Shown: positions 13,322 through 36,400 of the stretch, in pieces
Position numbering within the stretch: position 1 is the stretch's first letter
Layout of the letters: each line of letters begins with the position of its first letter
Assembly (NCBI GenBank): GCA_037367355.1
Contig: CM074703.1
Coordinates: 930,001 to 994,000 of the forward strand
Reading direction: 5' to 3'
Source: Neoscytalidium dimidiatum
Lineage: Eukaryota; Ascomycota; Dothideomycetes; Botryosphaeriales; Botryosphaeriaceae
DNA length: 64,000 bases
The notes under the pieces: generated by a model
What the model saw: only the letters and a program-made list of their open reading frames with translations
Databases searched by the model: none
What the model was told of the DNA's origin: nothing
Program-made: the position numbers and the translations under genes

Positions 13322-13794
13322 GTTTCGTCCAGTAGCGCTGCTGTCATCGGACTAACTATTCTGTTGTACTTCCTGGTCTCAAAGGCGATCCAGAAAAGCC
13401 GTCCCAAAGACAAGAAAACGCGCTCAAGAACACCAAAGGCGACACTGGCAGCCCTGAAGAGCATTCGTGGCACTACTCCCGGCATTGGTTCTCGGGTGAA
13501 CAAATGTCTCAACCAGAAGGCCATCGCACAACGGGAAGATAACGAGAAATTCGAAGTCGGAGAGCCGTACGGTGACCCCACGGTCATTTCTACAGGCTTG
13601 GTAGACGACCTACAAATAATTAGTCTTAAAGCCGGGATTAAAGATCTTCAAACCTTGATAGAGGTATTTAAGAATAAAGGGAAACCTGTTAATGCTCGTC
13701 AAATGGAGGTGAATAACCGGCTGGGAGTTCATGATTAGTATTTATATAACTGACCTTCTCCAGATGGAGAAGATGATCGCCATTACAGCTTCGT
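13322..13794 (+). pseudogene. Ppo-type fatty-acid oxygenase, 5' fragment (split by LTR element)
   Basis: Exon 1 is open from 13322 to 13708, and a 55-bp intron with a CTGAC branch site leads to exon 2 at 13764. Exon 2 is cut at 13794 by the LTR element. The sequence ISLKAGIKDLQTLIEVF followed by PVNARQMEMEK corresponds to the N-terminal region of linoleate diol synthase / psi-producing oxygenases, which make oxylipins from linoleate with a haem-peroxidase and a P450 domain. No convincing ATG is seen in the open frame. A hydrophobic stretch (AVIGLTILLYFLV) precedes the basic KSRPKDKKTRSR segment. The reading continues exactly at 31955. Confidence 0.8.
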
Positions 13795-13921
13795 TGTTAT
13801 GGCAAATACGCTTAGTACGCTTAGCGCGGCGCTAGCGCCGCTGGGTAGTTTAGCTCCTTCGCTCTCTTCCAAACGAAGACCAGACAACGAATACAGATAT
13901 ATACGAGTTTTTACTCTAACA
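13795..13921 (+). repeat. 5' LTR (127 bp)
   Basis: Begins TGTTATGGC and ends CTCTAACA, the canonical TG..CA ends. It aligns without gaps to 31823-31949 with six differences, all transitions at CpA or TpG. It is preceded by the target duplication TTCGT. Confidence 0.95.
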
Positions 13922-13923
13922 AT

Positions 13924-13937
13924 TGGTAGCTGCGAAC
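13924..13937 (+). other. Primer-binding site of LTR element
   Basis: TGGTAGCTGCGAAC starts 2 bp after the 5' LTR. TGG is expected opposite the CCA end of a tRNA. The first seven bases TGGTAGC equal the start of the initiator-Met primer sites known from yeast Ty elements; the primer tRNA here was not verified. Confidence 0.6.
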
Positions 13938-14040
13938 TTTTTCGACTATTATCCGCGCGCTACTCGCTTTGGGGCAGTGCTGTAGGGCACCTACGGGTAA
14001 TATTAAAAGGGATTTATACTACTACGCAGTAACAGTAGTA

Positions 14041-14176
14041 ATAGTCAGAACGCCTATACCGCTATACTAATAGTTAGAACGCCTATATAGTTATCGTAAT
14101 AATAGTTAGAACGTCTATATAGCTATAGTAGTAATAGTTAGAACGCCTATATAGCTATACTAATAGTTAGAACGTT
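14041..14176 (+). repeat. Tandem repeat in LTR-element leader, about 30 bp x 5
   Basis: Five imperfect copies of a 28-32 bp unit with the core TAGTTAGAACG followed by CTATATAGCTATA, starting near 14041, 14069, 14101, 14133 and 14162. It lies between the primer-binding site and gag. Confidence 0.75.
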
Positions 14177-14289
14177 AGCGAGCTAGATAACGTTATCGTA
14201 TATTATCTTAATAGGGTTATTACCTTAATAGAACCGATTAACGCTAGCTACGGTTAAATTAGTACTAGTTTCTATATCCCGCCGCGTTA

Positions 14290-15006
14290 TTTATTTATTT
14301 ATTTATTTATTTATTCGTTTAACGTCCTTATGCAAGCTAAGCTTATAAAAGACGGCTAGTCTACTAACGTATCTATTCCGGTATTTCGACCGGGGTTTTT
14401 ATTCGGGTTTTCTTCGGGAAGGAGTCTAGAAATAGTAGGGGCTAAGCCGGTGCTTTTTTAGAAAGAAATAGGAAAGTAAGTAGGAGAGTAGAAGAAGTAA
14501 AATAACGCTAAGAAAATTAGGAGAGGATATTTCTTTATAAAGAGAGACTAAAGTTAGTTTTTCGAAAGTACGTATTTAGACTTCCGTCGAAGTAAGTTCT
14601 AATAGCCACTTTCAGGTAGCTATTTTAGTTGTTAATAAAAAGCTTAGAAGAGCCTTCCGTCCTTCTTCGGTATTAAAAACGAGGTCTAGAAAGGGGTTTT
14701 TTGTTTCTAGACTAGTATATATATCTTCTCTTTCGAGTCGATACTTTTTACAGTCTAGAATTAGATGCCGGGGGGTTTATTTAGCCGTATTATTACACGG
14801 GTAGCTATTAGAGGGGTTTAGTCCGAAGCAGTTTAGATAGGACTTAAAGTATCTGTGTCCTATTTTAAGCTGGTAAAACGCGGAGCTAGTTTCTCTCTCC
14901 GTAGAGAGGTCTATTAACTTTCGTTTTATTTTCTAGTTAAACCGCCTTAGATAAGACTCTTTAGAGGCTATTTCCGCTTGCTTATTCGCTGTTTTTTACC
15001 ACGAAT
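14290..15006 (-). mobile_element. 5'-truncated Tad1-like LINE copy, antisense
   Basis: 717 bp, reverse complement of the 3' end of the LINE at about 28000-28707, ending in a (TTTA)n tail at its left side. It is flanked by a 15-bp target duplication TATCCCGCCGCGTTA at 14275-14289 and 15007-15021. A 5' truncation with a tailed 3' end is the signature of target-primed reverse transcription. It keeps some TG/CA sites (near 14990-15000) that are TA in the longer copy. Confidence 0.92.
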
Positions 15007-15021
15007 TATCCCGCCGCGTTA

Positions 15022-17600
15022 GCCGTAATAAGCTTCGAAATCTTAAGCTTTCTAATATTTAAGCAATAAATAGGCGAGGGCAACGATATTTTCCTCCGTC
15101 CCTAGAACGCCTTCCTTCGTATTCGCATCTACGACTATCGTTAGACATATTTCCTAGAGATTTACGGTCGGCTATTTACGAAGCGGCGAATACTCTAGCC
15201 CGTTAATCGAATAGTCCTAAGATACGGGTTAAACGAGTATAAAAATTGTCGTCGTCTAACGAGATCGAGCTCCGTTTCTAGCCTCGAACTCTTATTAAGC
15301 TAGTATTTAATTACTACCTTACTCGCTCTTAACTCCTACTACCGATACCGAGATCGAGGCGTATAGACGCCTCTCGACGAGAAACTCTAATCGTATTCGA
15401 TAGAAGTATAGGCACGGACTAACTATAATAAGCGTAAGTCGTATTACTAGGACCTATAGATAATACGCTATAAAGGATAATATTAGATAGGAGGGAAGAA
15501 GGTTCGATTATACCTTCTTAAAATAAGGATAAGCGACGAGCGGAATTAGAACTATTATATAGCTACCCGTTCTAAGGCTATTCGAATAATACTTACTAAA
15601 GAGACGTAATAGTAGTAAAGATTCTAGCTAAAAAGGAAGATTTTCCCTAGCTAGCCTATCTTACTTTCCCGTAGGATATTCTATTACGGGCCGATACGGT
15701 ATATAGTTTAACGTACCTCTATATAGAATAGCTACGCCCTTAAGTAGAGGCGGTAATTTAAGAGTAGTTTCTAGCGCTAGGTTTTTACGAGGAGCGTTTT
15801 AATAGGTAGTATAAACGATTTTAGAAGGGTCCGACTACTAATAGCTAGGCTTTAGATAAAGTAGTATCAATACCGCCTAAATAGTAGATAACGCGATAAT
15901 AGAAAGTAAGGCCTTAGCGATAGCTACGAGAGTCTTACTGTCCGCCGGGGGTATAGCCTTTTTATAAAGAGGAACGAGAGAGTAACCTACTAGAACGTCC
16001 TTAGAAATAACCTTATAACGTATTATAAGGCGCCGACCTATTACGACTACTAGAAGATCTAATAGTACGCTAGAGGCTAAACGAAATCTTACGGCTAGAG
16101 TTATTAAAACCGACTTAGTTACGGCCGTATTAACTCTAGTCGAACCGTTAGAAAATAGAAGAGATTAGTAGAACTTTCTCTTCCTTCGGATAGTAGGCAT
16201 TAGTTAAAGAGAACGTACGAGATATAATAAACCCTCTTAATAAGTCTCGCTAGCGTCGTTATATACTACCCCCTAGAGAATATAGTATAGTACCGTCTAT
16301 AAGGTCTACTTATACAACGTAAGCGTAATATAGCCCCCCTTAAATACGCTACGCCTTCGGATACGTTCTCTACTATAGTCCTCTACGTCGCTACGAAGCG
16401 TATCCTCTAATATATAGATATAGTAGAGGCCGCCTATAGCGTAAACGTAACCGTTAGCTACGAGTAGAAGATATAGGTCTATATAAGGATACTACTAGTA
16501 TATACGTATACGTTCGTTAAATCGTATAGCGAGTTAACGAATATAGAACCGCGCGTATATTAGAAGTATTATCGACGTATATAAGAGATAAAGCTACGGA
16601 CTAGTATAAGTCGTTGCCCGATACTATCTACGATAAGATAATAGGAAATATTAACAAATAGTATATCTAATTACGATACCGTTTCGCGAAGAATCTATTA
16701 GAAGCGGAAGAAGAGGCTACGCTTTATAAGTACTTATTTAAAAATAAATACCTCCTACCTTTACGAGAGTATATTACTAAGAAGTAAACCCTACTATACG
16801 AAGCGGGTTACGAGGAAGAGAGCTCTCTTATCCGCCGTATTTAGCGAGATATAGATCCGATTATTATAACCGCTATAGTTATCTAGCCTAGTATAATAAT
16901 AGAGCTATTTCTAGACGTAGTCTATATATAGGAATACGTAGTAAGGACGTAGTACCTCCGTTATAATAGATACTAGGGTTAGCGCCGTAATTAGTACGGG
17001 TAGTTCTAGGTAGTATAAGGCCTCTTCTAGCCGATTATACCGATTACTTATCCGCGTACGACCTAAGTATTAACCTCTACCCTAATAATACTAGCTAATA
17101 CTCCGCGCTCGACCGGAGTACCCCGATAGACGACTACTAACTAAGAAACCGCCTAACGCCCGGTTCGTTATCTCTACGTATATTACGATAGTATAGACTA
17201 TATTAATCCTTAATATCCTAAGCGTTCTAAGCTACTTACTACTACGGCTAATTACGCTAGTAAAAGCGAAGATAACGACCTAATAGATAAGAATAGTTAA
17301 GCGGACTATACGCTAACTAGACTAAATATAAGGGACTACCGAATCTACGCGGTTAGTAATAGTTTACTCGAGTCGTCCGATACTTTAAACGACTAGAGGA
17401 GCTACCCGAGAATAGAGGTAACTCCTCGGTATAGGAACTACTAGGACTTATAAAGAAAGTTCCCCCTACTAAAATACCTAAGAAACCGAAAATATATCTA
17501 TAGACTTTATCTACCCTAGAATAATAATATACCTCTATCTAAGCGTATTATTTATCGGATAAGAACGAGTCTATCGAATTTTACTCTAATACGGATTTAG
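15022..17600 (+). pseudogene. gag of the LTR element (RIP-inactivated)
   Basis: Reading TAA/TAG as former Gln/Trp gives a capsid-like helical region near 16700-16950 (LLPLREYITKK) and a nucleocapsid knuckle at about 17175-17216. There the spacing C-X2-C-X4-H-X4-C is kept, but all four ligands read as Tyr, as TG/CA to TA mutation predicts. The knuckle is in the frame whose codons start at positions divisible by 3. The exact start and end are not resolvable because ATG codons are lost. Confidence 0.7.
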
Positions 17601-20600
17601 GCTCGTTACTAATTCGTAAATCTACTTTACGACGTTTTTTTCTAAAGTTAGTAACGTATAAGTTATCCGCGGACGATAGGATAACGGTAAACGGCGTCGG
17701 TAAGAATACTTCTACCTAGATCTAGTATTTTATAAATTTTATACTTTAGATACGCGCTACCGATAGTACGATCTATAAATAGGCCGACCGAGTATACGTA
17801 CTTAAATACTTACTAGTTCTAATTTTAATCGGTAATAATTTTCTCGTTATATAAGGGATCGATATTTTATAGTTATCTTCGGTAGGCGTAGTATTATATT
17901 ATATAGGCTACTATTTTAAGATCTATACGACGCCCGTGCCTCGGCGCCGACGTATTATTTTACGCGCGGCTACCTCCGCGATAGTACTATCCGGAATAGG
18001 AGTTAACCTCCGGATACGGTATTAATTAGTTCCCGCCTATTTAAAGGGATACTTAGTAGAATCCTAGACTCTAGGCGATTTAGTTACGGGAACTTTTAGA
18101 CGCGTCGTAAGCGTAATTATTAAGAAAGACGAACGATAGATTTCTTTTACGAACCTAGGCCGGTCGAATATACGCGTCTTAAAAGGTTAGATAATAGGCT
18201 TCTTAGAATAAGCTCCTATCTCTATCTACCGTAAGATATTAGCCTTTCTATTTCTTAAGGAAATCTTCGAAGGAAAGCTACTAGAGTCGGAGATAGAAGA
18301 TAATAACTCTTTAATAGGTATCCCTTATACGGTAGAGCCTATAGAGGAGGCTATCCTAATTAATTAGGCCTATATCTTAGACTATTAGAGACTAAAGTAT
18401 TACTAGTAGATACTATAGCTATTAAGAACTTACTCTACGCTATTTTATTCTAAACTAGGAAAGTTTAACGACGGAGTAACTATACTAGTACTATTTAAAG
18501 ATAACGTTAATTTATTCCGACTTAAATAGGCGCCGTATAGTTTATCTAAAAGAGATAAGAAAGTAGTAGACGAGGTACTTAATCCGTTAGTAGAATAGAG
18601 AAAGGTAATTAGAATACTATTAGATAAGTCTAGTATAGTCGCTTCTCTAGTATTCGTAGTATAGAAGAACGGTAAACTATAGGTAGTCGTCGATATAAGA
18701 CGCGTTAACTAAGCTTTATACCCTAACGCCTACCTACTACCGAAGTAAGATATAATCTTATCCGCGATAGAAGGAGCTACTATTTTCTCGTCGATCGATT
18801 TTATAAAGGGATTCTTCTAATAAGAGATCGACGAGAAGAATCGCTAGAAGACGGCTTTCGTTACCCCCTACTAGAGATAGAAGATATTTACCGTATTAAT
18901 AATAGGTCTAGCTAACTCTCTAGGGTTCTTCTAATATCGAATAAAAGAGTTATTCGCTAACTATCTCTAGCTCTTTATACTAGTATACGTAGATAACGTT
19001 ATTATTTTTAGCCGTAATAAGGAAGAATATCTATAGTATCTATCCCGGATACTTTAGTTACTAGAGTTATCCGGCGTTATAATTTCCCTATCTAAGTATT
19101 ATTTTAGATATTTTTTAATTTAGGCTTTAGGCTACTACGTCTTCCGACTAGGTCTTAGTACCCTAGAAGCGAAGGTAGAAGCTATTAAAGCTATAAAGTT
19201 CCCGGATAACCTAGTCTAACTCGAATACGTAATTAGATTTCTAGGATACTACCAAAAATTCGTAGAGTATTTTACGTATAAGGCGGAGCCGATAATACGG
19301 GTAAAGACTAAAGGCTTTAAAAATATACTTAGTAGGGGATACGAGCGCCTTAAGTACGCCGAGTCTACGATACTAAAGGATTTACTAATCGAGGAAGAAC
19401 TATCCTAATATTAGTAGTCTTTCGACTATATACGTAAATTAGTTTATAATACGCTAGTTTTAATATTCTTAGATTTTAACCGGGGTTTTATCCTATATAT
19501 AGATAGGAGCCGAGAGAGAGGGTTTAGCTATATAGTATACTAGTTAGACCTTACGGGTCTAAATATACTCGAGAAGCGTCCGGTATTATTCCTATCTAAA
19601 AGTCTAACGCTAGCGGAATATAGATATTAGCTAATAGAACTCGAGACTACTACTCTAGTATAGGCTTTATAGAAGTTACCTTAATATATAGACTAGAACT
19701 AGATTATAGTTTTTACGGATTATTAAGTACTTTAGAATGCCTTTAAGAATAAGGGTCTAGCTAAAGGTAAGCGGTCTAAACGTTTAACTAACTAGAGACT
19801 ATTTCTATCTAAATATAAAGACCGTATAGAGGTTAAGTATATTACTAGAAAGGAGTATCGTAATACCGACGGTTTATTCTAAATATAGACTATATACTAC
19901 GCGATCTTATTCTAACTAACTACGTTATCTAGATATCGAGCCGTACGTATTCTCTATACTTCGCTATCCGCGACGGGAGAAATATAGCGATAAGACCTAC
20001 TAAATATTAGCCTAGAGTTAAAAGAACGAATTATTAGAGATCTACTAGCGGATCTAAAGCTCGGAGTAATATACTAGGCTATTCGAGAGTAAATTAATAA
20101 GAATCCTAACGAGCCTTAGACGACCGTATAATTCTTTTGACTAAGTTAGGACTCTAGATTACTCTTTTAAATAGTTCCGGATAGCTATAACCGGTTATAT
20201 ATACTATAAAAGATATACGTAAGTATATTCCGCGTTATATACGATAAGTACGCGTATATAGGTATTTACCGGACTTATATACGGATTTAGACGAATTTCT
20301 ATCTACTAGGACTCTATAAATTAGCTTACTAGTATATTACTACTTATCCTACTTATTAAACTATAAAGGCTAATCGCTAGTTACCGTTAGAAGAGCTATA
20401 GCCTATCGATAGCCCTACTATCCTATTTTATACTATTACTATAGATTTTATCGTAGGGTTACCGCTATCTCGTGCTAGGTTTAACACGCTATTAATAGTA
20501 ACGGATAAGTTTACGAAGGCCGTTAAGCTAGTACTAGAAATCGAAATCTAGAACGTATATTATTAGATAGTAGCGGTCTACGATTACGTTTTCTTATAAT

Positions 20601-21540
20601 AGGGACTACTATAAAAGATAATTAGTAATTAGAACCCTCGTTTTCTATTAGCGTTCTAGACGGCTCTTTTTCGCCGAATAGAAACCTAGCTAGCGTTTAC
20701 GTCGGTATACTACCCCTAGGTAGATAGATAGAGTAAAAGAACTAACTAGACCGTAGAAACCACGTTACGAATATTTATTACCGCGGAATAAAAAGCCTAG
20801 TCTAAATAGAACGAGTTATTACCTAATACTAAGTTTGTTCTTAATACTTTATCTAACGCATCTACTAGTAAAACTTCGTTTAAGCTTATATACGGTATTA
20901 ACCCCCGTAACGGTACGGCTTTAATCGAAACTATACGGTATAAACTAGCGGAGTACTTTCGAGGAGAATGAGAATAGATCCGAAAAGACGCTTCTAATAT
21001 ACTCTAGCTAGCGTAAGTAAAAATAGCTATAGAGTATAACTCGCGCTATCGACCGCTTTAGTAGATAGATAAGGTCTTCCTTAAGATCGTTCGTAGAGTT
21101 AAGTACGGTTATCGATTATCTTACTCGATAGTATTAGATATTATTAAGATTAGACTATTCCCCATACTTAAAAGAATCGGGAAGAATATATACCGGCTAA
21201 AGCTATCCGAGTATATTAAGATCTACCTAGTAGTTTTAATTATATATTTAGAACTAGTAGTCGATAATCCTTACTACCGTAAGTAGGCCTCGATACCTCC
21301 GGTAGAGAGTATTATAGACGTAGAACCGATTAAGTACGACGTCGATCGTATTATTCGTAAAGAGTAGCGACGATAGCCGGGCGATAAGAAAAGACGATAG
21401 TATTACCGCGTCCGATAGAAAGGATACGGAGTAAAGAATAATACGTAGATTCCCGAGGAGTAGCTTAGAGAAGACGTGCCTAAAATCGTAGACTAATTCG
21501 AGGAAAATCTTTCTCGACGCCTATAACGTTCGACGCATCG
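17600..21540 (+). pseudogene. pol of the LTR element: protease region, RT, RNase H, integrase, chromodomain (RIP-inactivated)
   Basis: One continuous frame (codon starts leave remainder 2 on division by 3, i.e. -1 relative to gag), full of TAG/TAA at former Gln/Trp codons. A protease-like segment lies near 17650-17880. RT spans about 18600-19300, with the active-site box YVDD mutated to YVDN near 18986-18997. RNase H follows near 19430-19900. The integrase core lies at about 20430-20860 (a DFIVGLP segment and a Tyr-Pro-Gln stretch near 20710). The chromodomain lies at about 21335-21500, with a mutated KGYG..NT.IPEE core. Integrase followed by a chromodomain is typical of chromoviruses, where it directs integration into heterochromatin. 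Confidence 0.88.
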
Positions 21541-23379
21541 TTAAAATAGCCGGTAAATTTCGGGCGTTTAGGTATTTTTATTACCTCTTACTTTTTCGTT
21601 TCCTACTTCCCTCTTATTTAACTATATTATCTTTATTAGCGTTTTTATTAGCGTTATTTAGGTATTTATTCTATAAGGGTTCTAAGGTAGTTTTAAACGA
21701 TACGTATTACGACGGTACGCTATATACGTAGACTAGCGGACTATTCTTTAGACCGTCGGTATTTTCTCTTTAATAATACGAACCCCTATACTAACCTACT
21801 ATTATCGGCCGGCGATATTTTCCTTAATATTATAAGCGACGCTATAGTAAGCGTAACTAAGGTACGTACTTTAGAGCGGTCTACTAGGCAGCTATTTCCC
21901 TTCTAGCGTCTTTTCCTCTATCTATTTTCGGCTCGCCTTAGGGTCGTCTATAGAGCGCCTAGGGGCGAGAGATTACTATTACTATCGAAAATATCTTATA
22001 TAGCCGAGGCCGTTCTTTTATATATAGGTCGACGCCTATTATTAGTTCGTTTAATAAGTAGATAAAAATTTTTTTTACTTTCTAAAGAATTACCGATAAG
22101 CGAGGATATCTAATCTAAAATCGCGACCGGGTTAGCCCTATTAATATAATACCTATATCTCTAAATATCTATACTACTCTTATACCCGTATTATCGATCT
22201 AATATATCCCTACTAATTAGCACGCGTTCCGCTATAGCGTCGGCTCGTTAGATTCTATTAGATATAAAGACCGACTCGTTCTCGGCTTCTAAAGACGAGA
22301 TATACGCTTATATTCTTGGCTTTTAGGCTTATACTAGCGAGTACGCGTACGTAAGAGAATTAACTATTAACCTCGCCTCTAAATCTAGCGAAGTAGGCCC
22401 GAAGCGTAACGCTAAGTAAGCTAAGCTTAATAATTATTAGAATCTTAATAACGAGCTAGAAGTTCTAGAGCCGATTCGCTCTTCGAATAGCTTTCGCGTC
22501 TTAGTTACTTTCTCGTTATTTAAGAAATATAACTCTACTATCGAGCTTCGGATTATATAGTACTTAATAACACCTTCGAATTCGACCCCGAGAAAAAGCG
22601 CTAAGACCGATATCTATCGAAAGCTCTTAATTTCCTTAGCTAGATTCTCGAATCTTAGCTTCGTAGCTATACGCGCTACTACGTTATCGCGTGGAAAAGA
22701 GACCTCGTTAGGCTAAATCGCCTCGCTCTACCTTCGTACCCCTATAAAATTTCTAAATCGACCCGAAAACGCACGAAATTTTTAGAATCTACCGAAAATA
22801 CCTACGCGTACCTCCGTACGAAGTTATACTAGATTTAGAGCGCGTTTACGTACCTAAATCTAAGGCGAAGAAGCGCTTTCTCCTCTTCTCCGTCCCGCCC
22901 CTTTTCCACGGCCCGTATACGTAGAGTTTTTACTATCTCGCTACCTACGCGAACTAAGAATAACCGAAAATAAGCGAAAAAGCTTAATCGAACTACCCTA
23001 AAAACGCTTCGTTACTTCTCGGGAGAAAATAACGAAGAAAATTCCCCACGCTCGCTAGGAATTTATTTATTTACGGCTTAGTTTAGACGAAACTAAAGCC
23101 GGCGATTTCTTTCTAGTCTAATTTCCTACTTCTACTATTTCCTTTCTAGAAAAAGTATAGAAAACTAAGAATATCCGCCTCCGGACCCCCCGGATTCCTT
23201 AGATCCTCTACGCCCCTCGACTCTAATTCGACTATCGACTACGCCGGTAGTTATCGAATCTTCGAATACTACGGGATCGAGTAGTATCGAAGATATCGAG
23301 ATAGAAAACGACGAAGTAATACCGCTATCGGAAGAAGGAATAAGTAATAACAGAGAGCCACGCCGACGCTAGAAAAAAG

Positions 23380-24575
23380 ACTTTCCTTCTCGCCGATAAC
23401 TACGGGCACTAACCCGTTCGAATACCGCCCCGAGAAAAGAACCCGGTATATACCGAGATCGAAACTAAAGTCCTCCGCGGAATATATCGAAGCCGTATTC
23501 GATTGCCTTATTAAGGCGATCGACCTTAAAGACGACCGGTCTAAGGTAAATAACCTTAGCGAACTTCTTACCGTCTTCTACGAATATACGGCGAAAGGGA
23601 AAATCGACTTTACTAAGTCGATTCTCGTAACTAAAGTCCGCGTACTTAAAAACGTATCCCGTACGCTTTCGAATAAAACGAGGAATCTTAGAGCTACCTC
23701 CGTAGCTACGACGGGAAAATCCTAGCCTAAACAACCAACCCCGGTAAAAAAACCTACCTCCTACGCCTTAGTAGCGGTAAGTTTAGGTCTAAACGACGGT
23801 TTTACAACCGTATCGTATAAAAAACCAACTAAAAAAACAACTACGAAGCTCGTAAAACTAACGTCTATTAAAGATAGATAAATTACCGTCTCCTACGACG
23901 GCGTACGAGACTAATTTAATAGAATCCGACTCCGATAAAAGCTAAACCTCGCGTTCGCGGGAGCCGGTTTCGTAAATAAACCCGTTATCTAAGGAACTTC
24001 CCTTTCGTTTAAGGGAAATATCCTAATTACGGGTATCGAAGGCTATACTAGCTAATTTCTCTTAGAAAAAGAGAATATTATTAGGAAAGTCCTTCCTAAT
24101 TCTAACTCGAAACTAGTCGAGGCCTAGTATAAGGTTATTATCTACGGAATTCCTACGCGGGAAACTAAGGATATTCTAATCGACTTCTTTATTAAGGAAG
24201 AAATAGAGACCTTTAACGTAGGTCTTTCTCCTATCGGTAAGCCCTACTGGGCCACCTCTAAGGAGAAAAGAGAAAACTAATCCGCGGGATCCGTTATAGT
24301 CTCGTTTCGCACCGAAAAGGAATAGAAAAAGGCTATTAATAGCCGCCTTTTTATATACGGAATAAGCTATAAAGTAGAGAAAGTACGGGTAATTCCTAAG
24401 GGAATTTAATATCGTAACTACCTTAAAAACGAACACGAAACGGCTAAATATATAAGGACTCCTATATACGAAATCTATAAAAAGGAGCACCTTACGGGAG
24501 AGTATAAGTATAAATTTATAGGCTATAAAGCCTCTAAAGGTATACGGTACTAGTATTACCCTAATTCGAATTAAC
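23380..24575 (+). pseudogene. LINE ORF1 (gag-like), RIP-inactivated
   Basis: A frame with many TAG/TAA in place of Gln/Trp. It includes a segment near 23400-23720 (EAVFDCLIKAIDLKDD) and, near 24480-24560, a run in which Tyr replaces the Cys of nucleic-acid-binding knuckles (YKYKF.GYKASKG). The start is not defined because ATG codons have been lost. Confidence 0.6.
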
Positions 24576-24599
24576 TAACCCCCTTTATCTATAGATAAA

Positions 24600-27500
24600 C
24601 TAAGGGTATTTTAAGTAAATTTAAATAGAAACGCTCTAGCTACGGAGAGCCTTCTATCTAAAGTAATCGATCTTAAAATTAGCCTAATTCTTATATAAGA
24701 ACTATAGCTAATAAACCCCGAAAATCCTAGAGAAAGGCGGTCGGTTAACTACCCCGCGTTCGTTTAAATTCTACCGGATTATTCTCTAACGAAAAGACCG
24801 CGTACGTTAGTATATATATCCCGTTATCTAACGGGAATAGATATTAACTATAACTCCGCGGTAACTAAATCCCCCGACCTAATAATTCTAAAAATAATAG
24901 AGGAAAATAGCTAATTCTACCTCTTTAATTTATATAATTAAAAGAAATAAGGAAACGATAATTCCCCCTATACGCTAGAACGTATTCTAGGCTACTAGTA
25001 ACTAGAATTCCCTAGTATTATAGCCGGGGACTTTAATATTCACCACCCGTAGTGGGACCTAAGGTCCCCCTACTCGAACGGGGCCTCTACCCTAATTAAT
25101 TAGATTGAATCTAATAACCTAGACCTACTAAATACGCCGGGAGAAGGTACCTTCTACCGGCCGAACCTAGATAGGCCTACGGTAATAGATCTAACGCTCT
25201 CTAGCCGAGGGCTAACGAATAAAATAACGGACTAGTAAATACTCGAATCTATCGGATCCGACTACTTCCCTATTTTATTTTAAATCTAATTAAATAAACG
25301 AATAAACTAGGAGAAATCTAAGCAAATTAGATTTAATTACGAGAAGGCGAACTAGGATAAATTCTCTAAGATCTTTAAAGAAAAAACCTCGAACTTTATA
25401 GAAAAGCTACGCCCCTAGCTAGCTATTCTAGAAGAAGAGAATAAAGATCTTAGCCTAGAGATTCTAAAAGACCGTTCGAAAGAAGTCTTACTCTTAGAAA
25501 AACTAGGAGAATCCCTAACTAACCTTATACGGTAAGTAGCGAACTAAGCTATTCCGAAAACTACCCCGCTAGCTAAAGCTAAATCCTAGTAGAATTCTAT
25601 CTTAACGGAGGCCCGAGGGAACCTTAAACGACAAACGCGGCTTATACGACGCTCGCCGAAGCTTATAAATAAGTAAGATTTCCTAAAAACCCGAAACGAA
25701 TACTTCTCCTCTATTCGTAAAGCTAAACGGGACCACTAAAATTCGTTTCTAAGTAAAAATACCCCCGAAACTATCTTTAAAGTAATAGCCTATATAAAAC
25801 ACCGTCCGATAGAACGAATCCCTCCGATTCGGGCTAAAAATAGCCTACTATAAGATAGCTAGAAGGGGAAAAGCTCTGCGCTAAGAGAAACGTTATTTCT
25901 ATTCCCTCCTAACGTACGAATCGAAAATAACTAGATAAATTACCAGCCGGATCCAAGCTAGGAATAGCTAATTCTAGATAAAAAAGAGCTCGAACGAACG
26001 TATTCGAACCTAATAAAAGAAACTACGCCCGGACCTAATTTAATATCCTAATAAATTATTATTTAGGCCTATAACGTATCTCTAAAAGCCTTCTATTTCG
26101 TCTATTCGAACCTCTTTAAATATAGCTACTATCTAAAGTGCTAGAGACAAGTAACGGGGGCAATTTTAAAGAAACCTAATAAGCCGGATCCCGCGAATCT
26201 AAAGACTTATAGGGTTATCTCTCTATTAAATTGCCTAGGAAAAGTACTCGAACGAGTAATAGCTAAACGCCTCGGTTTTCTAGCGGAAACAACAAATCTA
26301 ATTTACCCTATATAAATAGGGGGAAGACTTAAAAAATCCGCTATAGACGCCTGCTTTATTCTAACGAATTTAGTAGAGGAAAATAGAAAGGTAAAGCTAA
26401 AAATATCTACGCTATTTCTAGACGTACGCGGTGCTTATAACTACGTCGCGTAAGAATAACTCCTAGGAATTTTAAAAAAGTTAAAGCTTCCGACTAATCT
26501 ACTCGCGTAGATTAGAACTTTCTTAAATTCCCGATAACTACGCCTTAGTTTCGATAGAAATATAGAAGAGTTTAATAACGTAGAAACGGGTATACCGTAA
26601 GGAAGCCCTATTTCGCCGATACTATTTCTAATTTACATCCGAGATCTATTCTAAACAAACTCCGCTAGCTATCTATCCTACGTCGACGATATCTCTTTAA
26701 TAGTAAGCTCGAAAAGCTAGAAAAAGAATATTAAGATACTAGAAAGAGAAACGGAAAGACTCTATAAACTAGGCGCGGAAAATACTATATAATTCGACCT
26801 CGAAAAAACCGAATTAATATACTTTTCTAAAGAAAAAACGATAAGAGATTCTACTTTAAAACTACCTACGGGTTTAGTTATAAAACCTAAGAATCTAGTC
26901 CGATATCTAGGAGTTTTTTTAGACCCACTCCTTAATTTTAAGGAACACGTCGATATTAGAATAAGCTAAGCTCGTTCGAGCCTTTTAAGGATAAACCGAC
27001 TAGCTAATATCGAAAACGGACTAAAACCTAACGCGGTACGGCAGTTATACTTAGCCTACGTTACCTCTATCTCCGACTACGGCTCTATTTTATACTGGAA
27101 TAACTAAGCGAATTTTAAACGAAAAGCTACGATACTCTAGAATCTAGCTCTACGGAAAATACTAGGCGTTTTTAAAACCGCTCTAATTACTCCCCTCGAA
27201 ATAGAAGCCGCGATCCTACCCTCGGAAATTCGCTTAGAAAACAACCTCCGATTCTACGCCCTACGAAGTCTTAAATTAGACCGAAAACACCTAATTCGAA
27301 GCCTTCTAGAAAGAGAGAACGAATACGAAAGTAAGCTCGTTCGAAAAATTAAAGACTTTCTAAAAGATAAGCCGTATAACCTCGAAATAGTTAATCCTTT
27401 CTACTTTCCACCTTAGGAGCTATCTACCCTATACTCGGTTAAAGTCTCTAAACTCTCGAAAGAAGAACAAGCTAAGAAATACCTAAACGAACTCGAAAAC

Positions 27501-28270
27501 CCTCCGGATAACCTAATATCTATCTATACGGACGCGAGTTCGATTCCGAATAAAACCGGAATTAGACTAGTAGTTTTTATAGATAGAAACGACCCTACTT
27601 TTAAAGACGAAACTACTATTATAGTAGGAAATATCGGGGATAATAACCTAGTTTATAACGGCGAACTAGAGGCTCTTACGAGAGCCCTCGAACTCGTAGT
27701 TAAAAACGGATATACCGATAAAGATATTAGAGTCTACGCGGATAACTAGGCCGCGCTCTACCGTCTAAAAATACCATCCGAAAATCTAGGATAACTAGCG
27801 TAAATACGAGCTTTAAACGCAGCTAAAATGCTCATCCTAAAAAGAAATTTAGTTTAATTAGAATAGGTCCCCGGCCATTTTAATATACGCGGCAACGAAA
27901 AAGCAGATTCCCTAGCTAAATACGCCTATAAAATAAACCCGAATAACGAATCGACTAGCTTTGCATTCTTTCGAGTGCTAACGTAAGCAGATTTTATTAA
28001 TTTGTAGTAAAAAATAGCAAATAAGTAAGCGGAAATAGCCTCTAAAGAGTCTTATCTAAGGCGGTTTAACTAGAAAATAAAACGAAAGTTAATAGATCTC
28101 TCTACGAAGAGAGAAACTAGCTCCGCGTTTTACTAGCTTAAAATAGAATACGGCTACTTTAAGTCCTATTTAAACCGCTTTAGACTAAACCCCTCTAATC
28201 GCTACCCGTATAATAATACGGCTAAATAAACCCCTCGGCACCTAATTCTAGACTATAAAAAGTATCGACT
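24600..28270 (+). pseudogene. LINE ORF2: endonuclease, reverse transcriptase, RNase H (RIP-inactivated)
   Basis: The apurinic-type endonuclease is seen as IIAGDFNIHHP near 25020 and VIDLTLSS near 25180. RT spans about 26150-26950, with YRVISLLNCLGKVLERV, FLDVRGAY, a P-[Q]-GSPISPILF box and YVDDISL near 26680. RNase H follows at about 27510-27940 (IYTDASS, GELEAL, YADN, VPGHFNIRGNEKADSLAK). A C-terminal Cys/His motif is seen as its mutated form near 28195-28265. The order and the RNase H domain fit the Tad1 clade. Confidence 0.88.
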
Positions 28271-31200
28271 TAAAAGAGAAGATATATATACTAGTCTAGA
28301 AACGAAAAATCCCTCCTTAGACCTCGTTTTTAATACCGAAGAAGGACGGAAAGCTCTTCTAAGCTTTCTATTAATAACTAAAATAGCTACCTAAAAGTAG
28401 CTATTAGAACTTACTTCGACGGAAGTCTAAATACGTACTTTCAAAAAACTAACTTTAGTCTCTCCTTAAAAAAGAAGTTATTCTCTCTTAATTTTTCTTT
28501 TATCTTCTACCTCTTCTTATCTTCCTACTTACTTTCCTATTTCTTCCTAAAAAGCACCGGCTTAGCCCCTACTATTTCTAGACTCCTTCTCGAAGAAAAC
28601 CCGAATAAAAACCCCGGTCGAAATACCGAACTAGATACGTTAGTAGACTAGCCGTCTTTTATAAGCTTAGCTTATATAAGGACGTTAAACGAATAAATAA
28701 ATAAATAGATTATATAGTACTAGCCTTACCTAACTAAGCCTAACTAATAAAAGTTACGCGTTATATTAATTACGGGTAACCGCGATAGCATTAACCTAGA
28801 AATTCGTTTTAGCGGTTTTCGTAATAAGGCGAGTAAATAGGCTACCCGGTACGGAATAACGCGTAACTAGATTTTCTAACTATATAAGGCCGCTAGTTCG
28901 CATAATAACCGGCTTTAGGAAATTAAGATTCCTTTCTACGAGGACTTACTCTACTTCTAGGGACTATTTTCTACGAATAAAGAGCACGAAGATCTTTTCT
29001 AGGAATAACTACGCGAATATATATACGGCTCTAGAGTGTTTTATATACTAATTTAAAGTCCTAGTATCGAAAAGACGGTTAATCGGATAAACGACGAAAT
29101 AGCTAAGCTCCGGGAAAATAATCTACTAGACGCCTAGTTCTCTACGTCTAAGAATAAGAAGTTTATTTAGAAAGGTATAATTAAAAGTAAGGAGAACCGC
29201 CCTAAGATTAAGTTAGGAGTATTTAATATCTTTCTAACGTTTAACTACTATCTAACTACGGTTGGTTTTATAGCGGTTTAAGAGTAGAAATATAGCGACG
29301 AGAATAGCTAGCCTTTCTTTACTAATATCCGTTTTCTAGAGATGCCCGGTAGCTATAGTAACGCTTTTTTTAGTTTCCTATCCGGCTTTCCTAACGGAAT
29401 TTATTTAAACGCGGGAGATAGCCTTAAGATCTACCCTATAGATACGAGCGAAGAGATCGATAATAAGGCTTAAAATAGATTTATTCTTAATTCTTTACTA
29501 TTTATAGGATTAAGCGATATCTCCGCTATTCTCTATCGCTACTAGTACGAAGGCGTATAGGATTAAGTTAATATAGGTAATCTAGCTAGAATCTAGAATC
29601 TTAATACTTTCAATAAAGCTCGTAAAGCCGTTATATAAGCCCTAGCCTTACGATCTACCCTTAAAATCTATAACTCGTCTAAGTTCTTTAAACTATAGAT
29701 AAACTCCTTATAGTAAATTACGGATAACTAGAAGGAAGCTTTTAAGCTTAAGCGCGAAATCTTACTAGGTAACTACCCGTCGCGTCTACCTTACGTAAAC
29801 CTATACGCTCGGATCGTTACTAAACCCCGCCTATATAAAATAAAAAAGCGTATTTACGATAAGTTTAATAAGGGCTAAAGGGCTATAGCGAATACTTATC
29901 GAAGTCTATTCGGCGGTATCGGTATTATTAAAGGTCCCCCCGGCACTAGAAAAACGTTCGTAGGAAATTAGATTATTTAACCTCTACTCTATTTAGATAA
30001 GGGCCTAGAGCGTTAACCCGTCCTATTAATCTTAGCCTCTAATAAGTCTACTAATATATTTACGGAACGCCTAAACTAACTTACGGTCTAAACCTTTAGA
30101 GAGATAGGCTTTTAGACTCCGCCGATAATTATTCGTATATTCCTAACGTAGGTAGAAGACTAGATCGTAAAACGGGAGGTAGAAGCGGTACGACCTAATA
30201 AGAGGCTTACTTATTTCGATAATACGCTCCTAGACCTTAGTTAAATATTAGCCGCCTAGATCTTTATAGAGCGATATAATAAAGCTACGTACCGTTCTAT
30301 TACCGGAGTTAATAACTAGCGAGTTAAGGAGATTAGTCTTATCCTTAGTTTCCGTATACTATAGATAAGCGGTTTCTCGGATATACTCTTTACTACTAAG
30401 GACAACGAATAGTACTAAGAGTTTCGAAGAATATTCGTAGAGTATAAGAGTGGTAAAGTCTTTACGGAAAAGAAAAAAGAGTAGTTTACCCTAGCTATTA
30501 GCGAACTCCGCGTCGTAATACTTTAACGCGCGGAAGCTATCGTTACGACTCCCGCTACCGTCGGCCTTTTTAAGTTTCGCGACGTAGTATAGCCGAGAGT
30601 TATTCTAGTAGATAAAGCCGCCCGTATTAACGAGGCTAACCTATAGTATTATTTTAGCTAGTTTCTAGAAGTAATTCGTATTCTCTTAGACGATACTCGG
30701 TAACTACGCCTATTCGTATATCTGTAAAATAATCTATACGCTTAGGCTGGCGTTTCGCTTATACGTCGCCTAGTACGCGTAGGCTTTCGCACTATCTAGC
30801 TTACTAAATAGCAGCGCTACGGCTAGAAAATCTATAAAATTATTTTAGAAGTCTAGTACGAGGGTCTTCTTACTATTACGTAGTATCTCGTTAATAAGCC
30901 TTATAAGGAAGATTAATAATTTCGGTTATAGTCTAAGAAGTTCTACGGTATAGAGACTTAAATTCTCTACGTTAATACTAAGGATAGTATTACCGTTAGA
31001 GATTCTTTCGGATCCTCCTTTAACCTTTAGTATACTTACTTAGATAGAGGAATTATCCGTAGCCTACTCGATAAGGGTTTCTAGCTAAAGTAGATTAGTA
31101 TTCTCTATACGTACTAGGCCTAATTTAATTTATACGACTAGGTTATTACGTAGATTTAGTATAAAAGACCTAACTAAGATCTTCGTACAATTCGTAATAA

Positions 31201-31808
31201 AAAGATCGACGGATTCTAGGGCGATAAGATTCTAGTTATAATTATTAATCTATCTACGACCTAGACTCTAGGTTTTCTAGAAGATAGCTATCGTATTAAT
31301 ACTGCTTTATCTCGTAGACGTTCGGATATTATTTTAATCTATAATTACCGCGGCCTATCGTTAGATCGGAAGTACTAACGCTCTAATCTCTAGTCGGTTT
31401 TTAGGATTATACGCTAGAAAAGAAGGTTTACTACAATAAGTAAGGAGGCTATTTAGAGTCGTTTCTCTAAGCTCTAAAAGGACCTAACGAGCGCTACTAG
31501 TTTTAAAATAGAGAAGGACTCTCCTATAGCGGATACTCCTTAGGATAGTAGTAACTAGAAAGCTCCTATAGCGGATATCCCTTAGAATAGTAGTAACTAG
31601 GAAGCCTCTAGGAACTAGAACGGCTAGAATACCGATACGACTAGCCTAGATCTTAATATTAAGGAAGAAGCTACCTAGCTTTCGAGGGAATATTAGAGGA
31701 CGAGACTTTCTTTTTCCTTTCTTTTTCTTTTCTTACTTTTCGAGTTAATAATAGGAGGACGAGGCCTTTTTCTTTTACTCTTTATAGTTACTAAGGATAG
31801 TAATAATT

Positions 31809-31820
31809 AGGGGAGGGGTA
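31809..31820 (+). other. Polypurine tract of LTR element
   Basis: AGGGGAGGGGTA lies two bases before the 3' LTR, the expected place of the plus-strand primer. It fixes the element's orientation as plus. Confidence 0.75.
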
Positions 31821-31822
31821 GA

Positions 31823-31949
31823 TATTATAGCAAATACGCTTAGTACGCTTAGCGCGGCGCTAGCGCCGCTAGGTAGTTTAGCTCCTTCGCTCTCTTCTAA
31901 ACGAAGACCAGACAACGAATACAGATATATACGAGTTTTTACTCCAATA
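31823..31949 (+). repeat. 3' LTR (127 bp)
   Basis: Begins TATTATAGC and ends CTCCAATA, i.e. TG..CA mutated to TA..TA. It is followed at 31950-31954 by the duplication TTCGT, after which the oxygenase coding sequence resumes in frame. Confidence 0.95.
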
Positions 31950-31954
31950 TTCGT

Positions 31955-34250
31955 TGCCGCGAAACTCAACAACGCGTAAGAAGCTAACTGGAATCATTAT
32001 CTATACACTCCAGTCAAGCCTGCAGCATCCACCACTGAGCTATCTGGGCTACCAGTTTCAGTATGGGACACCCGATGGAAGTTTCAACGTGTGTAGACTT
32101 CAATATAATATCAAGCCTTAAGCGCTGATTACTCTACAGAATCCCTTATCCCCTGAAGATCCGAACAATGGAACGAGGCCCTCTGAAGCCAGCTCCCTTC
32201 CATGAGTGGAGACTTCTAGGTCAGCCACCGGGTATCAACGTCATGCTTATCATGTACAATCGCTTTCACAACTACGTAGCGGACGTGTTGCTCAAGATCA
32301 ATGAAGGAGGGTGCTTTAGCCTGCCTCCTACGAATACGGAGGAAGAGCGTGAAGCGGCGTTGGCGAAGCAAGAGAAAGACCTCTTCCAGACCGCAAGACT
32401 ATTTATATCAACATTTGTCTCCACGACTATCTGCGGGGACTCACGAACACCCACCACTCAGCAAGCGACTAGACGCTAGACCCCCGCATCGCTGTCAACA
32501 GGGTTCCCAGCAAGCGCAAGCGGCTTGTCAAGCGATCAAGCAAGCGGCTTGCAACCGGGCATTTTTGGCCCGCTTGATCGATTTGCCAAGATCAAGCGCT
32601 TGAGCTTGCAAGCGGGATAAAATACCCCGCTTGCTTACAAGCGCTTGGTAAGCAGAATTAGAACGAAGGTATATTTTAAAAAAGTAATAGTATAAATCGC
32701 CGCTTAGATCGTATATTATAAGTAGAAATATATAGAATTTAGCTATTTATTTAATATACGTTATTATAATTTACCTTAGAGTAGCTTTAGATACGCTCGG
32801 GTACGCTCGGATACGCTTAGATATACTTAAGTATACCCGGGCGTATATTCCGCTAGCTAGTACGTACACGCTAAACTTAATATAGGAGTTACGTATATAT
32901 TAGTAATAGATAAAAAGACTAGATAAGAGCCGTATACTACTAATTCTAGTAGTTTATTACTTATATAAGTCTGCTTATAAGCGCTTGATAAGCGAATAAG
33001 CAAGCTAAGCGCAAGCGACTCCGCTTGCTTGATCGATCCGCCGGCGGCCATTTGCTTGCAAGCGGGGTGCCGGGGTCCGCTTGCGCTTGCAAGCGGGTTC
33101 AAGCGGGACCCGTGGCTGTCAATAAGCAGTTCGACTCGGAAGGCGTTCCCGAAGGTGTCGGGAATCAGGTCTCGGCAGGTTTTAATCTACTGTATCGGTT
33201 CCACTCGACAATCTCAAAGCGGGACGAACGGTGGTTAAATATCTTCCTCCAGGGACTGTTTTCTGAAACGGATAGGTTCTTGGATCAACTTACGCCGCAG
33301 GATTTCGTCCAGGGACTCTTCCGTTTTGAACGCAGCATACAGACGATCCAAGCCAGTGCGAGTTTGTGGTCTCAAGCGCGGTAATGATGGCAAATTTAAT
33401 GGTGCTGATCTAGTCCGCATCATGAAGGAAAGCATGGAGGACCCAGCCGGCCTCTTCGGACCGCGTATGGTGCCTGGCAAGGCCCTGCGCGTTATCGAAA
33501 TCACCGGCATCCTCACAGCTCGCAAATGGCCATGGGCTTCGCTGAATGAAATGCGCGACTTCTTCAAGCTGCAACGCCACGGTAGCTTCGAGGATATCAA
33601 TGCAGACCCTGAGATCGCTGACCTCCTCCGCAAGCTCTATGATCATCCCGAAATGGTCGAGATATACCCTGGAATGTTCCTTGAGGATGCAAAGCCGCGT
33701 ATGGATCCTGTCTGCGGTGGATGCCCTCCGTACATTGTGGAACGGGCGGTGTTCAGCGACGCCGTCACGCTCGTGCGGTTTGATCGATTCTACACGGTCG
33801 ATTACACGGCATCGAACCTCACGAACTGGGGCATCGCTGAGGTTCAACAGGACTACGACGTCCCTGGGGGCTCGATAGTCTACAAGTTGTTCCAGCGCGC
33901 CCCGTACCACTTCCTGCACATCATGCAACCCATGTTCACGCGTAAGATGAACGAGCAAATAGCTCGGGGGATAGGCACGATCGACCAGTACACCCTCGCC
34001 GATCCCGCTCCGCCGCGGCGACCCGTGTTCGTCGAGAACCACTCGACCGTCAGCCAGCTGCTGAAAGATCAGGTCAATTTTCGCGTTCCGTGGGCTGTGG
34101 CCTTGAACGATCTGTTCCCAGGAAAGAAGGACTACTCCTCCTATACGCTCGGCGGTGACAAACCCGCCAACACGGCTCAAAGGATTCTGTTGGGCGACAT
34201 GTTGTTCACGGCTGTCGAGCTTGGGCAGTCACTTTCTGAGACTGCAATGA
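31955..34250 (+). pseudogene. Ppo-type fatty-acid oxygenase, main fragment (haem-peroxidase part)
   Basis: It resumes exactly at the codon interrupted at 13794 and runs through SSLQHPPLSYLG near 32020. A deletion of roughly 100 codons removes the distal part of the peroxidase domain. Then come the RLLGQPPGINVMLIMYNRFHNY region (32208-32280), YINICLHDYLRGLTNTHHSASD followed by a TAG stop at 32470, the hAT-like insertion, and GVGNQVSAGFNLLYRFHS (33150-33205). A one-base frameshift near 33340 follows, then GLKRGNDGKFN through YPGMFLEDAKPRMDP and DRFYTVDYT to about 34250. The C-terminal P450 domain is absent. All breaks make it non-functional. Confidence 0.88.
32499..33114. mobile_element. Non-autonomous hAT-like element (616 bp) in oxygenase pseudogene
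   Basis: Flanked by the perfect 8-bp duplication GCTGTCAA (32491-32498 and 33115-33122), the hAT hallmark. Removing the element and one copy restores an uninterrupted oxygenase frame. Terminal inverted repeats are imperfect: CAGGGTTCCCAGC at the left, CACGGGTCCCGC read inward from the right. Both ends carry dense CAAGCG/CGCTTG subterminal repeats (32510-32645 and 32970-33108), as in transposase-binding regions of hAT elements. The core (32650-32960) is TA-rich and almost free of CA/TG. No transposase is coded. Confidence 0.88.
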
Positions 34251-34951
34251 TTACCTCGTGGTTAACGTGCATTAGTAGCTCCAAGCTATGGTATCTTCAG
34301 AGCGTCTGGCTGGAGATCTCTGATGATGGAAATTATAGGGACGTCTTAGTGGGGAGCTACGATTTACCCAAATCTACAAGTATCTCCTCCATGCCCACAA
34401 CGTACCTGGAGTCTCCCCTGATCTTGTTCCAAGACCTGGGCGTCGGCGATACCGCACCCAGGGCCAGACCCCGAACTATCATCCCCTGGATCTCAGGCTC
34501 CTCTATCGACACAACATCTCAGTGCGCTCCTTTGGGAATGGCGGTCGGCGCGATACCAAGGGCGGGCCCGACAAGGGAGGAGGGAGTCGTTCTTTTGTGT
34601 AGGAAGACGACCTTAGAAGTGAACGCAGTACCGAGATCCGCGCGCATCAACTTCCTCGCCTTCTTTGAGGACGATAAGGAACTCAGTCTCAGCCATGCGT
34701 CCGCCTTCGCCAATTTCCCATACCAGAGCACCCGCTCTATCATGGTCAGCGTGGAATACAACATTCCTGCAGCGCGCTCGGTGGCCGGCATCGATCGATT
34801 CCTGTACACACACAGCACCTCGTCCATCCATCTGCGACTGGTGGACAAACATGATAGGCCTAATGAGGCCAGATATGCCTTAGAGTCATTGTCCAAGCCC
34901 TTTGCACACGACCTGCCAGCCTCGATCGTCATGATTCCGAAGGCGGAGTGA
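34251..34951 (+). pseudogene. Open frame fused to oxygenase fragment, origin unknown
   Basis: The reading frame of the oxygenase fragment stays open to a stop at 34949-34951, but its similarity to oxygenases stops near 34250. A short piece resembling the linker before the P450 domain (YKYLLHAHNV) lies in another frame near 34365. The last 130 residues (INFLAFFEDDKELSLSHA and onward, 34640-34948) look protein-like but I do not recognise them. This may be the 3' end of another gene joined by deletion, or read-through of decayed sequence. Confidence 0.45.
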
Positions 34952-36103
34952 AAAGATGCGGGTGTTGTCGGGTATAGCTGGGTGCCTTGTACATGTTTTG
35001 TATCTGCAACGCTCTGATACTTCCCTGGGCGATGATGTCGACGTTTTTTTTTCTAAAAAAAAAACCTAAGAAGCTTGGCCTGGGAAATCTAAAATTTTCA
35101 TTATAATTACGATCTATCACTATATGATCCGGTGCTTCGAACCACTGTCCTATCCTCTTTGGTTGAAGGCAATAGTTCTTGTGGAATTTGATAACTTGCA
35201 TAGCAGTAGCATTCAGAGTTCTCGCAGGAAGCAAGTACTGTGACACGAACGTCTTACCACTCGCAGATTTCAGGTACCATTTGAGAATGGCCTTCACGCT
35301 TTTAGAATTAGTTTCGGTGTTGGAAATGATTAGTGCAGGTCCGAAGTATTTCTGCAGACACTGGACTATTAAATCCTTAGTTCTCAGCTTACCATAGAAA
35401 GGCCGTTATCAATCGTACATCGACTTTCTCAGCAAATTGGATTAGCTTAAGTGGAGAAATCCGGAACTTAACCAGTTACGAATAAGTCATTCGTGGAAAT
35501 AATTTTATGATGGCTACACTGTGTAGCATACCGTTGAAAGCTGGACTATTGATGGACGCGCAAGTGCCATCTATAATCGTGACGTAATGCACTGGTACTA
35601 AGATGTCGCAACACATTGAGACTTCTACTTATGCTAAAGCCAATTCTGGTCATATCGAGTTTATTCGCATGATATTACTGCTACGTGTCTGCTTGTCTGG
35701 CTGATATTCAGTGGCGAGATGAGATAGAAAGGTAGTTACCTAGTGATAATAAATATCTTATTCATCCAACTGGCCCCACACACGGACAGCAATACCTTCC
35801 AGTAACTAGTATTTTTCGTATATGACGTGCTTGTTACTACATAGTTGGTAAATAGTTGTGTCAATTTTTAGTGTTATTAGGGAGCACGTATACGTAGACA
35901 TGAGACCCTGACTGTCCTCGCGTCTCCACGTCACGCTGACGTTCAACCACACCATCACAGATACGTAACATGATTTCGCCTGCACAGAACCTCCAACGTG
36001 AATATATATTCATCGCCCATTCAGTGATCATTTCTTTCAGAGATTCAACATTCTTCTGGCATCCAACCATCAATCGCACGACTCTCTACACTTTTCGGTT
36101 ACC
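34952..36103. other. intergenic, no gene seen
   Basis: AT-rich 1.15 kb with no supported gene. A TATATATT stretch at 36003-36010 could be the TATA region of the Con-6-like gene. Confidence 0.5.
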
Positions 36104-36400
36104 ATGTCTTTCCAACGCAACATTGACAGGGACGCAACCCTACAGAACATCAACGACCAGCCCGAGGACATCAGCAAGAGCGCTCAGGGCCACAAGGCCA
36201 ATCTCAGTAATCCAAGTATGCAATTACTAACGACATGTACTCTTGGTTGCGAATCATTGACATCTTCCACAGACACCAGTGAGGAATCCAAGAAGAATTC
36301 TCGCCAAGCACTTGAAAGCCTTGGTGGAGAAAATGCCTTCTACGGCAAAAATGAACCGGAAAAGGACCCCAACAGAGTTGCTGGTGGCCTGAAATCGTAA
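36104..36400 (+). CDS. Con-6 family conidiation-specific protein
   Basis: Exons 36104-36215 and 36273-36400, with a 57-bp intron (donor GTATGC, acceptor CCACAG), give 79 aa. Splicing creates the family motif NPNTSEESKKNSRQALE, absent from the unspliced reading. Neurospora Con-6-type proteins are small, hydrophilic, highly expressed in conidia and of unknown biochemical role. The C-terminus PNRVAGGLKS looks like the start of a second Con-6 unit that ends early at TAA. A GTAAG at the stop could allow a further splice, but the alternative frame also stops quickly. Confidence 0.85.
   Translation: MSFQRNIDRDATLQNINDQPEDISKSAQGHKANLSNPSMQLLTTCTLGCESLTSSTDTSEESKKNSRQALESLGGENAFYGKNEPEKDPNRVAGGLKS

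Follow-up and report, generated by a model that had tools for sequence, protein, structure and literature searches.

A predicted superfamily 1B helicase frame between pol and the polypurine tract of a chromovirus in Neoscytalidium dimidiatum

The stretch of DNA analysed here (hereafter the window) comprises 64,000 nucleotides of the fungus Neoscytalidium dimidiatum, positions 930001-994000 of contig C9 in a 43.76-Mb, 40-contig assembly, and all copy counts given below come from that one genome. The window holds a Ty3/gypsy chromovirus, a complete insertion with long terminal repeats (LTRs) that has been inactivated by repeat-induced point mutation (RIP). According to the explanation that we consider likely, this chromovirus has a third sense open reading frame (ORF3), located between pol and the polypurine tract, for a superfamily 1B (SF1B) helicase of the UPF1/ZNFX1 type, which was acquired before the copies spread and was then mobilised as a part of the element.

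Organisation of the element and its nested LINEs

The two LTRs, of 127 bp each (13795-13921 and 31823-31949, + strand), form a direct repeat with six differences, all of them transitions. Read to its limits, the left LTR has the ends TG..CA, and the right LTR has the ends TA..TA. The initial annotation of this DNA had recognised the LTR pair correctly, and a perfect target-site duplication, TTCGT, has now been found directly outside it (13790-13794, identical to 31950-31954). For a gypsy LTR this length is very short, and the perfect palindrome GCGGCGCTAGCGCCGC lies within it. The presumed primer-binding site ATTGGTAGCTGCGAAC (13922-13937, + strand) adjoins the 5' LTR, its TGG beginning two bases past the LTR, and the polypurine tract GGGGAGGGGTAGA (31810-31822, + strand) precedes the 3' LTR. 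In the 5' leader, a repeat search revealed short tandem repeats (14034-14174, + strand). The presumed gag region (15008-17500, + strand) is assigned by position, and no Pfam match was obtained across its approximately 2.5 kb, either in the window or in the pieces of a second copy on the same contig (C9b).

The pol frame (17567-21508, + strand) encodes protease, reverse transcriptase (RT), RNase H, integrase, SH3 and chromodomain, as judged from Pfam and from tblastn of the database proteins P0001, P0002, P0003 and P0006, which match in one frame; P0002 and P0003 align along it, and database proteins that bear the SH3 and the chromodomain align along that single frame. The Pfam scans, for which the three + frames were read in pieces with stops written as X, matched RT, RNase H, SH3_Tf2-1 and the chromodomain, with SH3 and Chromo scores below the Pfam cut-offs. 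A + strand pol with a C-terminal chromodomain, as initially described, is thus confirmed.

Two sequences related to a long interspersed nuclear element (LINE) are inserted in the LTR element. The larger one, of 6.1 kb (22565-28707, + strand), splits ORF3, is bordered by a 14-bp duplication (GATTATATAGTACT, at 22551-22564 and 28708-28721) and ends in an ATAAAT-like tail. Its endonuclease, RT (the second in the element) and RNase H were located by Pfam at 24918-27926, upstream of the helicase domains, and from this domain order we take it to be Tad1-like. The smaller one (14290-15007, - strand) is an inverted copy of the 3' end of that LINE, and is bordered by its own 14-bp duplication (ATCCCGCCGCGTTA, at 14276-14289 and 15008-15021). 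The empty site of the large LINE is visible both in C9b and in a copy on contig C3, in which DNA matching window positions 21055 (21053)-22564 passes straight into DNA matching 28706 (28709) onward, while the empty site of the fragment is visible in C9b (L035) only.

The element shows a RIP-like signature. The GC content is 34-43% over window positions 14001-32000, versus 53% and 58% in two flanking stretches. The TpA/ApT index reaches 1.83 in gag-pol and 1.94 in the helicase (0.71 and 0.67 in the flanks), and the (CpA+TpG)/(ApC+GpT) index falls to 0.03 and 0.06, respectively (1.13 and 1.18 in the flanks). The helicase part carries 81 stops in 976 codons (54 TAG, 27 TAA and no TGA), a load similar to that of the pol frame (75 in 975), and ORF3 of the C3 copy also carries a frameshift. 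Since RIP also destroys ATG codons, the ends of ORF3 are approximate.

The ORF3 frame and its helicase

When the LINE is removed, ORF3 is one reading frame of roughly 1,270 codons, formed by 21697-22564 (start approximate) and 28709-31690 (end approximate), both on the + strand; in C3 and C9b, pol leads directly into the helicase. The first part is assigned from the phase-1 frame, which in the LINE-less copies is continuous with the helicase frame, and the second from the helicase frame and the comparisons between copies. The initial annotation had placed a helicase frame of about 1,100 codons in the interval 21540-31809; the helicase is indeed there, but most of that interval is LINE, and ORF3 is longer and starts at about 21697. 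The frame had also been described as different from that of gag-pol. In the raw phase of the window this is not so, phase 2 being shared by pol and the helicase core, but it does hold once the LINE is discounted, the upstream part of ORF3 then lying in phase 1, as against phase 2 for pol. Before the LINE insertion point, within 21790-22560, 10 stops occur in the frame continuous with the helicase, versus 23 and 27 in the other two (Fisher p=0.004, for a stretch whose start was picked after inspecting the frame). Two tandem 42-nt units lie at 31521-31604, close to the 3' end of ORF3.

The helicase core (29909-31342, + strand) was assigned from Pfam and from matches to sequences of the PDB. In the window copy, AAA_12 is matched over its cut-off (E=1.1e-9) and AAA_11 under it (E=3.4e-4), on one strand and with the order of the domains kept. 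The best PDB match found with phmmer is ZNFX1 (1.6e-11), followed by a splicing factor (1.1e-7) and UPF1 (2.1e-7), with weaker matches to SMUBP-2 (1.5e-4), Aquarius (0.0012) and SEN1 (0.0031); by name, 22 of the 24 UPF1-family entries in the match lists are SF1B helicases of one superfamily. An IGHMBP2-family model of NCBIfam is also matched (1.4e-9), with 37 bits against a cut-off of 349. The C9b copy also yields AAA_11 (E=1e-5) and AAA_12 (4.4e-5), and the C3 copy yields AAA_12 (0.0076) in one of three frames. The matches of the window copy, well above chance, bear out the earlier recognition of an SF1B helicase on the same strand as pol and inside the LTR pair.

What we take to be motif I reads GPPGTRKT in both the window and C9b, and the presumed motif II is DKAAR in the former and DEAAY in the latter; these departures look like RIP-type changes. 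Neither a UPF1 N-terminal zinc-binding model nor an NFX1-type zinc-finger model, as in ZNFX1, was matched by the + frames of 19701-22900 and 28700-31830, the query being RIP-damaged in both cases. No viral helicase model was matched either, AAA_12 and AAA_11 being the only Pfam matches in the helicase frame, and the three minus frames of 21600-30700 gave no Pfam match. In a tree, the element helicase is placed weakly beside ZNFX1-like rows (71/68), a placement that is unsafe because its row has a branch length of 3.19 and a skewed composition. From its sequence, the protein is therefore predicted to be an SF1B helicase of the UPF1-like superfamily, with the subfamily left unspecified.

Copies of the element in the genome

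The helicase region matches five places in the genome, which correspond to four copies: the window, C3, C9b (in two pieces) and a locus on contig C2. The pol region matches four places in three copies, and the gag region matches three. Three copies are bounded by LTRs, namely the window copy, C3:3391330-3420448 and C9:3224158-3241942 (C9b), and each lies between perfect 5-bp target duplications of its own (TTCGT, TCTAC and GAGTC, respectively). In all of them the polypurine tract is found at the same place, C3 and C9b having a similar tract ahead of the right LTR. The initial annotation had proposed that the helicase would be an accessory gene of the element if other copies shared it, with a possible role on the element RNA or in evading RNA decay, and had set beforehand as a test the co-occurrence of helicase and pol between LTRs. 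In this genome, the helicase is present in 3/3 of the pol-bearing copies found, collinear with pol and adjoining the right LTR, and among the copies found for this family, none had pol without the helicase. The helicase has thus been mobilised together with the element in three separate insertions.

These copies are not intact. The matches of C3 omit window positions 18075-19512 and are spread apart by gaps of approximately 5 and 8 kb, which are taken for nested insertions because opposite-strand RNase H matches lie there. The helicase of C9b is broken by 6.5 kb containing another RNase H match. At the C2 locus, nothing but the 3' part of the helicase, LTR sequence and neighbouring LINE sequence is present, and this locus is therefore uninformative on pol. 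Gypsy-type RNase H matches number at least 150 genome-wide (150 of 251 candidates were scored), and some of these frames are stop-free, so that other gypsy families look recent.

The LTR has at least 41 matches in the genome (40 of 142 candidates were scored). Thirty LTR loci were examined, five of which belong to the three LTR-bounded copies. Among the 25 others, a perfect 5-bp duplication was found at 20, one with a single mismatch at three and none at two, when a few alternative ends were allowed, and at none of these 25 loci was the element interior matched over 40 bp or more. Solo LTRs (20 loci with perfect duplications) far outnumber the three LTR-bounded internal copies, and LTR-LTR recombination therefore seems frequent in this family. 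One of the loci, L013, has three LTR matches inside approximately 1.1 kb, one of them inverted. The LTRs form two subtypes, one of 127 bp (window and C3) and one of approximately 120 bp (C9b), and both carry the helicase.

RIP does not make transversions. Between the window and C9b, five transversions were counted in 2831 bp of pol and one in 2091 bp of helicase, and between the window and C3, seven in 2929 bp of helicase; within the LTR pairs of the three copies, 6, 12 and 9 transitions were counted and no transversions. These low numbers indicate that the copies were nearly alike before RIP, and that pol and ORF3 have diverged alike. When transversions are pooled over copies and sorted by codon position (first/second/third), ORF3 shows 3/2/8 and pol 1/1/11, with an excess at third positions in both (8/13, p=0.035, for ORF3; p=0.0002 for pol). 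For the helicase this is a weak signal of selection, a hint only, because all the comparisons involve the window copy and so lack independence.

Downstream of the element, a stretch of approximately 600 bp (window positions 32490-33110) abounds in CAAGCG/CGCTTG motifs and is AT-rich in its middle; it is possibly a small repeat resembling a miniature inverted-repeat transposable element, and its weak terminal inverted repeats (32569-32598 and 33078-33107) are 70% complementary. Further on, 34900-38300 is GC-poor (41-45%); its sole Pfam match is a conidiation-protein-6 domain at about 36182-36325, and by Pfam it is not a RIP-mutated transposon.

Origin of the helicase and comparison with known systems

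In the explanation proposed here, an ancestor of the element would have gained the helicase before the present copies spread, after which the helicase would have been reverse-transcribed and integrated as part of the element; later, the copies would have been mutated by RIP and would have received insertions of LINEs and other gypsy elements. Because ORF3 and pol are in different frames once the LINE is discounted, ORF3 may have been expressed as a product of its own. The protein may remodel the ribonucleoprotein of the element itself, which would aid reverse transcription or keep the element RNA from host surveillance, that is, from nonsense-mediated decay (NMD) or RNA silencing. A long region 3' of a stop makes an RNA an NMD candidate. 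The element RNA, with its long stretch beyond the pol stop, would be such a candidate, and an element-borne UPF1-type enzyme is for this reason an attractive idea. It is nevertheless rather unlikely that a lineage of fungal chromoviruses has a functional UPF1/ZNFX1-type helicase of its own, an accessory protein protecting its long multi-ORF RNA against NMD or RNA silencing as a counter-defence from the same enzyme class as host surveillance.

Several observations weigh against the proposed origin of ORF3. The arrangement is known from the DNA of one genome, in which all copies are decayed, and a family search of this genome recovered the window copy alone among the element copies. The Pfam scores of C9b and C3 are all below cut-off, and the C2 remnant gave no Pfam match in three frames. 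In the helicase part another frame has fewer stops (68 versus 81), and TGA is almost absent in the other frames too; stop counts do not prove the helicase frame, which rests on homology and on the copies. The signal of selection on ORF3 consists of 13 non-independent changes. Finally, pol matched 39 proteins of the protein database at E<=10, the best seven with 38-46% identity over 44-100% of the query, while the helicase matched none at E<=1e-3 or at E<=10. The helicase searches used a RIP-damaged query and scored approximately 8,000 candidates each, and the one at E<=1e-3 took its words from the first 500 residues, so that this absence is only moderately informative, although it suggests a restricted or fast-evolving gene. 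The finding of relatives for pol and not for the helicase leans towards a local capture. Among viral contigs, 48 pattern matches to a pol profile were obtained, none of which was confirmed.

The same data may be explained by a host or foreign helicase gene that was transduced once and hitchhiked in a small burst of copies without ever serving the element, which would leave the same structure as the favoured explanation and differ from it in function alone. With only three internal copies, a helicase that lacks database relatives although pol has them, and weak signs of selection, such a passenger is a serious contender, somewhat short of an even chance, and it fits the data nearly as well as a functional accessory. 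On the other side, the reading frame has been carried through into copies of two LTR subtypes, and the genome shows no close source gene, although one was sought by family, DNA and protein searches, by tblastn on 11 host loci and in the tree. Beyond the element copies, the helicase protein has three matches, with 22-24% identity and E values of 6e-4 to 0.013, and the best tblastn match among the 11 loci is to a UPF1-like host gene (1e-5, 21.6% identity). The host SF1 helicases are presumably SEN1-, UPF1-, DNA2-, HCS1-, ZNFX1- and Aquarius-like. One subtelomeric locus (L053, C2:17001-21500) holds a stop-free frame of 1,096 aa with SF1 helicase motifs, which is unlike the other host helicases in the tree.

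It is very improbable that the helicase belongs to another element nested within the LTR element, an alternative that the initial annotation had offered, or to a gene inserted there separately. Nested insertions are common here, the window copy alone containing two LINE insertions, but the helicase occupies the same place in 3/3 copies with different insertion sites, and the LINE is delimited by duplications and empty sites of its own that leave the helicase untouched. The internal duplications found lie at the ends of the two LINE insertions, no systematic search having been made for one around the helicase alone, and the inverted repeats around the helicase are AT-rich and short (the best of 54 pairs spans 38 nt at 74%). 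Still less credible is that the copies are segmental duplications of a single insertion, in which the helicase would have moved once: few transversions separate the copies, but there are three different target duplications directly at the LTRs and two LTR subtypes, and the flanks outside the C3 and C9b LTRs have no match to the window. Least credible of all is an artefact of a decayed AT-rich frame with 81 stops in 976 codons, given the matches to AAA_12, ZNFX1 and UPF1 and those obtained from C9b.

If ORF3 was acquired and mobilised as proposed, it would add to the functions that retroelements gain in the region 3' of pol, a known place for such gains, of which env is the best known, and it would connect retroelements with the class of enzymes (UPF1, ZNFX1) by which RNA is policed. 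Should relatives in fungi without RIP keep ORF3 intact, retroelement-borne RNA-surveillance helicases would become directly testable. For annotators, helicase matches in RIP-rich DNA are not necessarily host pseudogenes.

No work recognisable by its title or the start of its abstract was found on a helicase in a fungal LTR element or on a UPF1-type helicase in a chromovirus, in a literature coverage outside which most subscription journals lie. In a survey of fungal LTR elements (PMC3248453), the word helicase is absent from the main text, and the transposon helicases named in a fungal screen are of Academ, Kolobok and Helitron type (PMC10799480).

The element resembles the fungal Ty3/gypsy chromoviruses related to it by pol (P0001-P0007, of which P0007 is from Pyrenophora tritici-repentis) in its LTRs, its 5-bp duplication and its protease-RT-RNase H-integrase-chromodomain order in one frame, and may differ from these relatives, known here as proteins without gene context, in the extra helicase ORF 3' of pol. 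ORF3 shares by sequence the SF1B core of UPF1, ZNFX1, Aquarius, SMUBP-2 and SEN1; unlike UPF1 and ZNFX1, its scanned frames contain no UPF1 or NFX1 zinc-finger model, and it forms a long, weakly placed branch. The nearest precedent, as far as the available parts of these papers go, is that of the virus-derived SF1 helicases carried by insect LINEs and, according to their authors, by LTR elements of Diptera and Hymenoptera (PMC6338049, PMC5563155). Those superfamily 1 helicases are of viral type and fused to element proteins, whereas the one in the fungal chromovirus matches cellular UPF1/ZNFX1-type models (AAA_11, AAA_12) and lies in a frame different from that of pol. Additional sense ORFs between pol and the 3' LTR have also been described (PMC7264820, PMC5408684), with the same place, orientation and sharing by copies as ORF3; in the parts of these papers available, they encode env-like proteins, a GDSL esterase and a DEDDy exonuclease, a UPF1-type helicase not being among the enzymes named. 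Extra ORFs at this place and SF1 helicases on retroelements are known, and what would be new is an ORF for a predicted SF1B helicase of cellular type 3' of pol in a fungal chromovirus.

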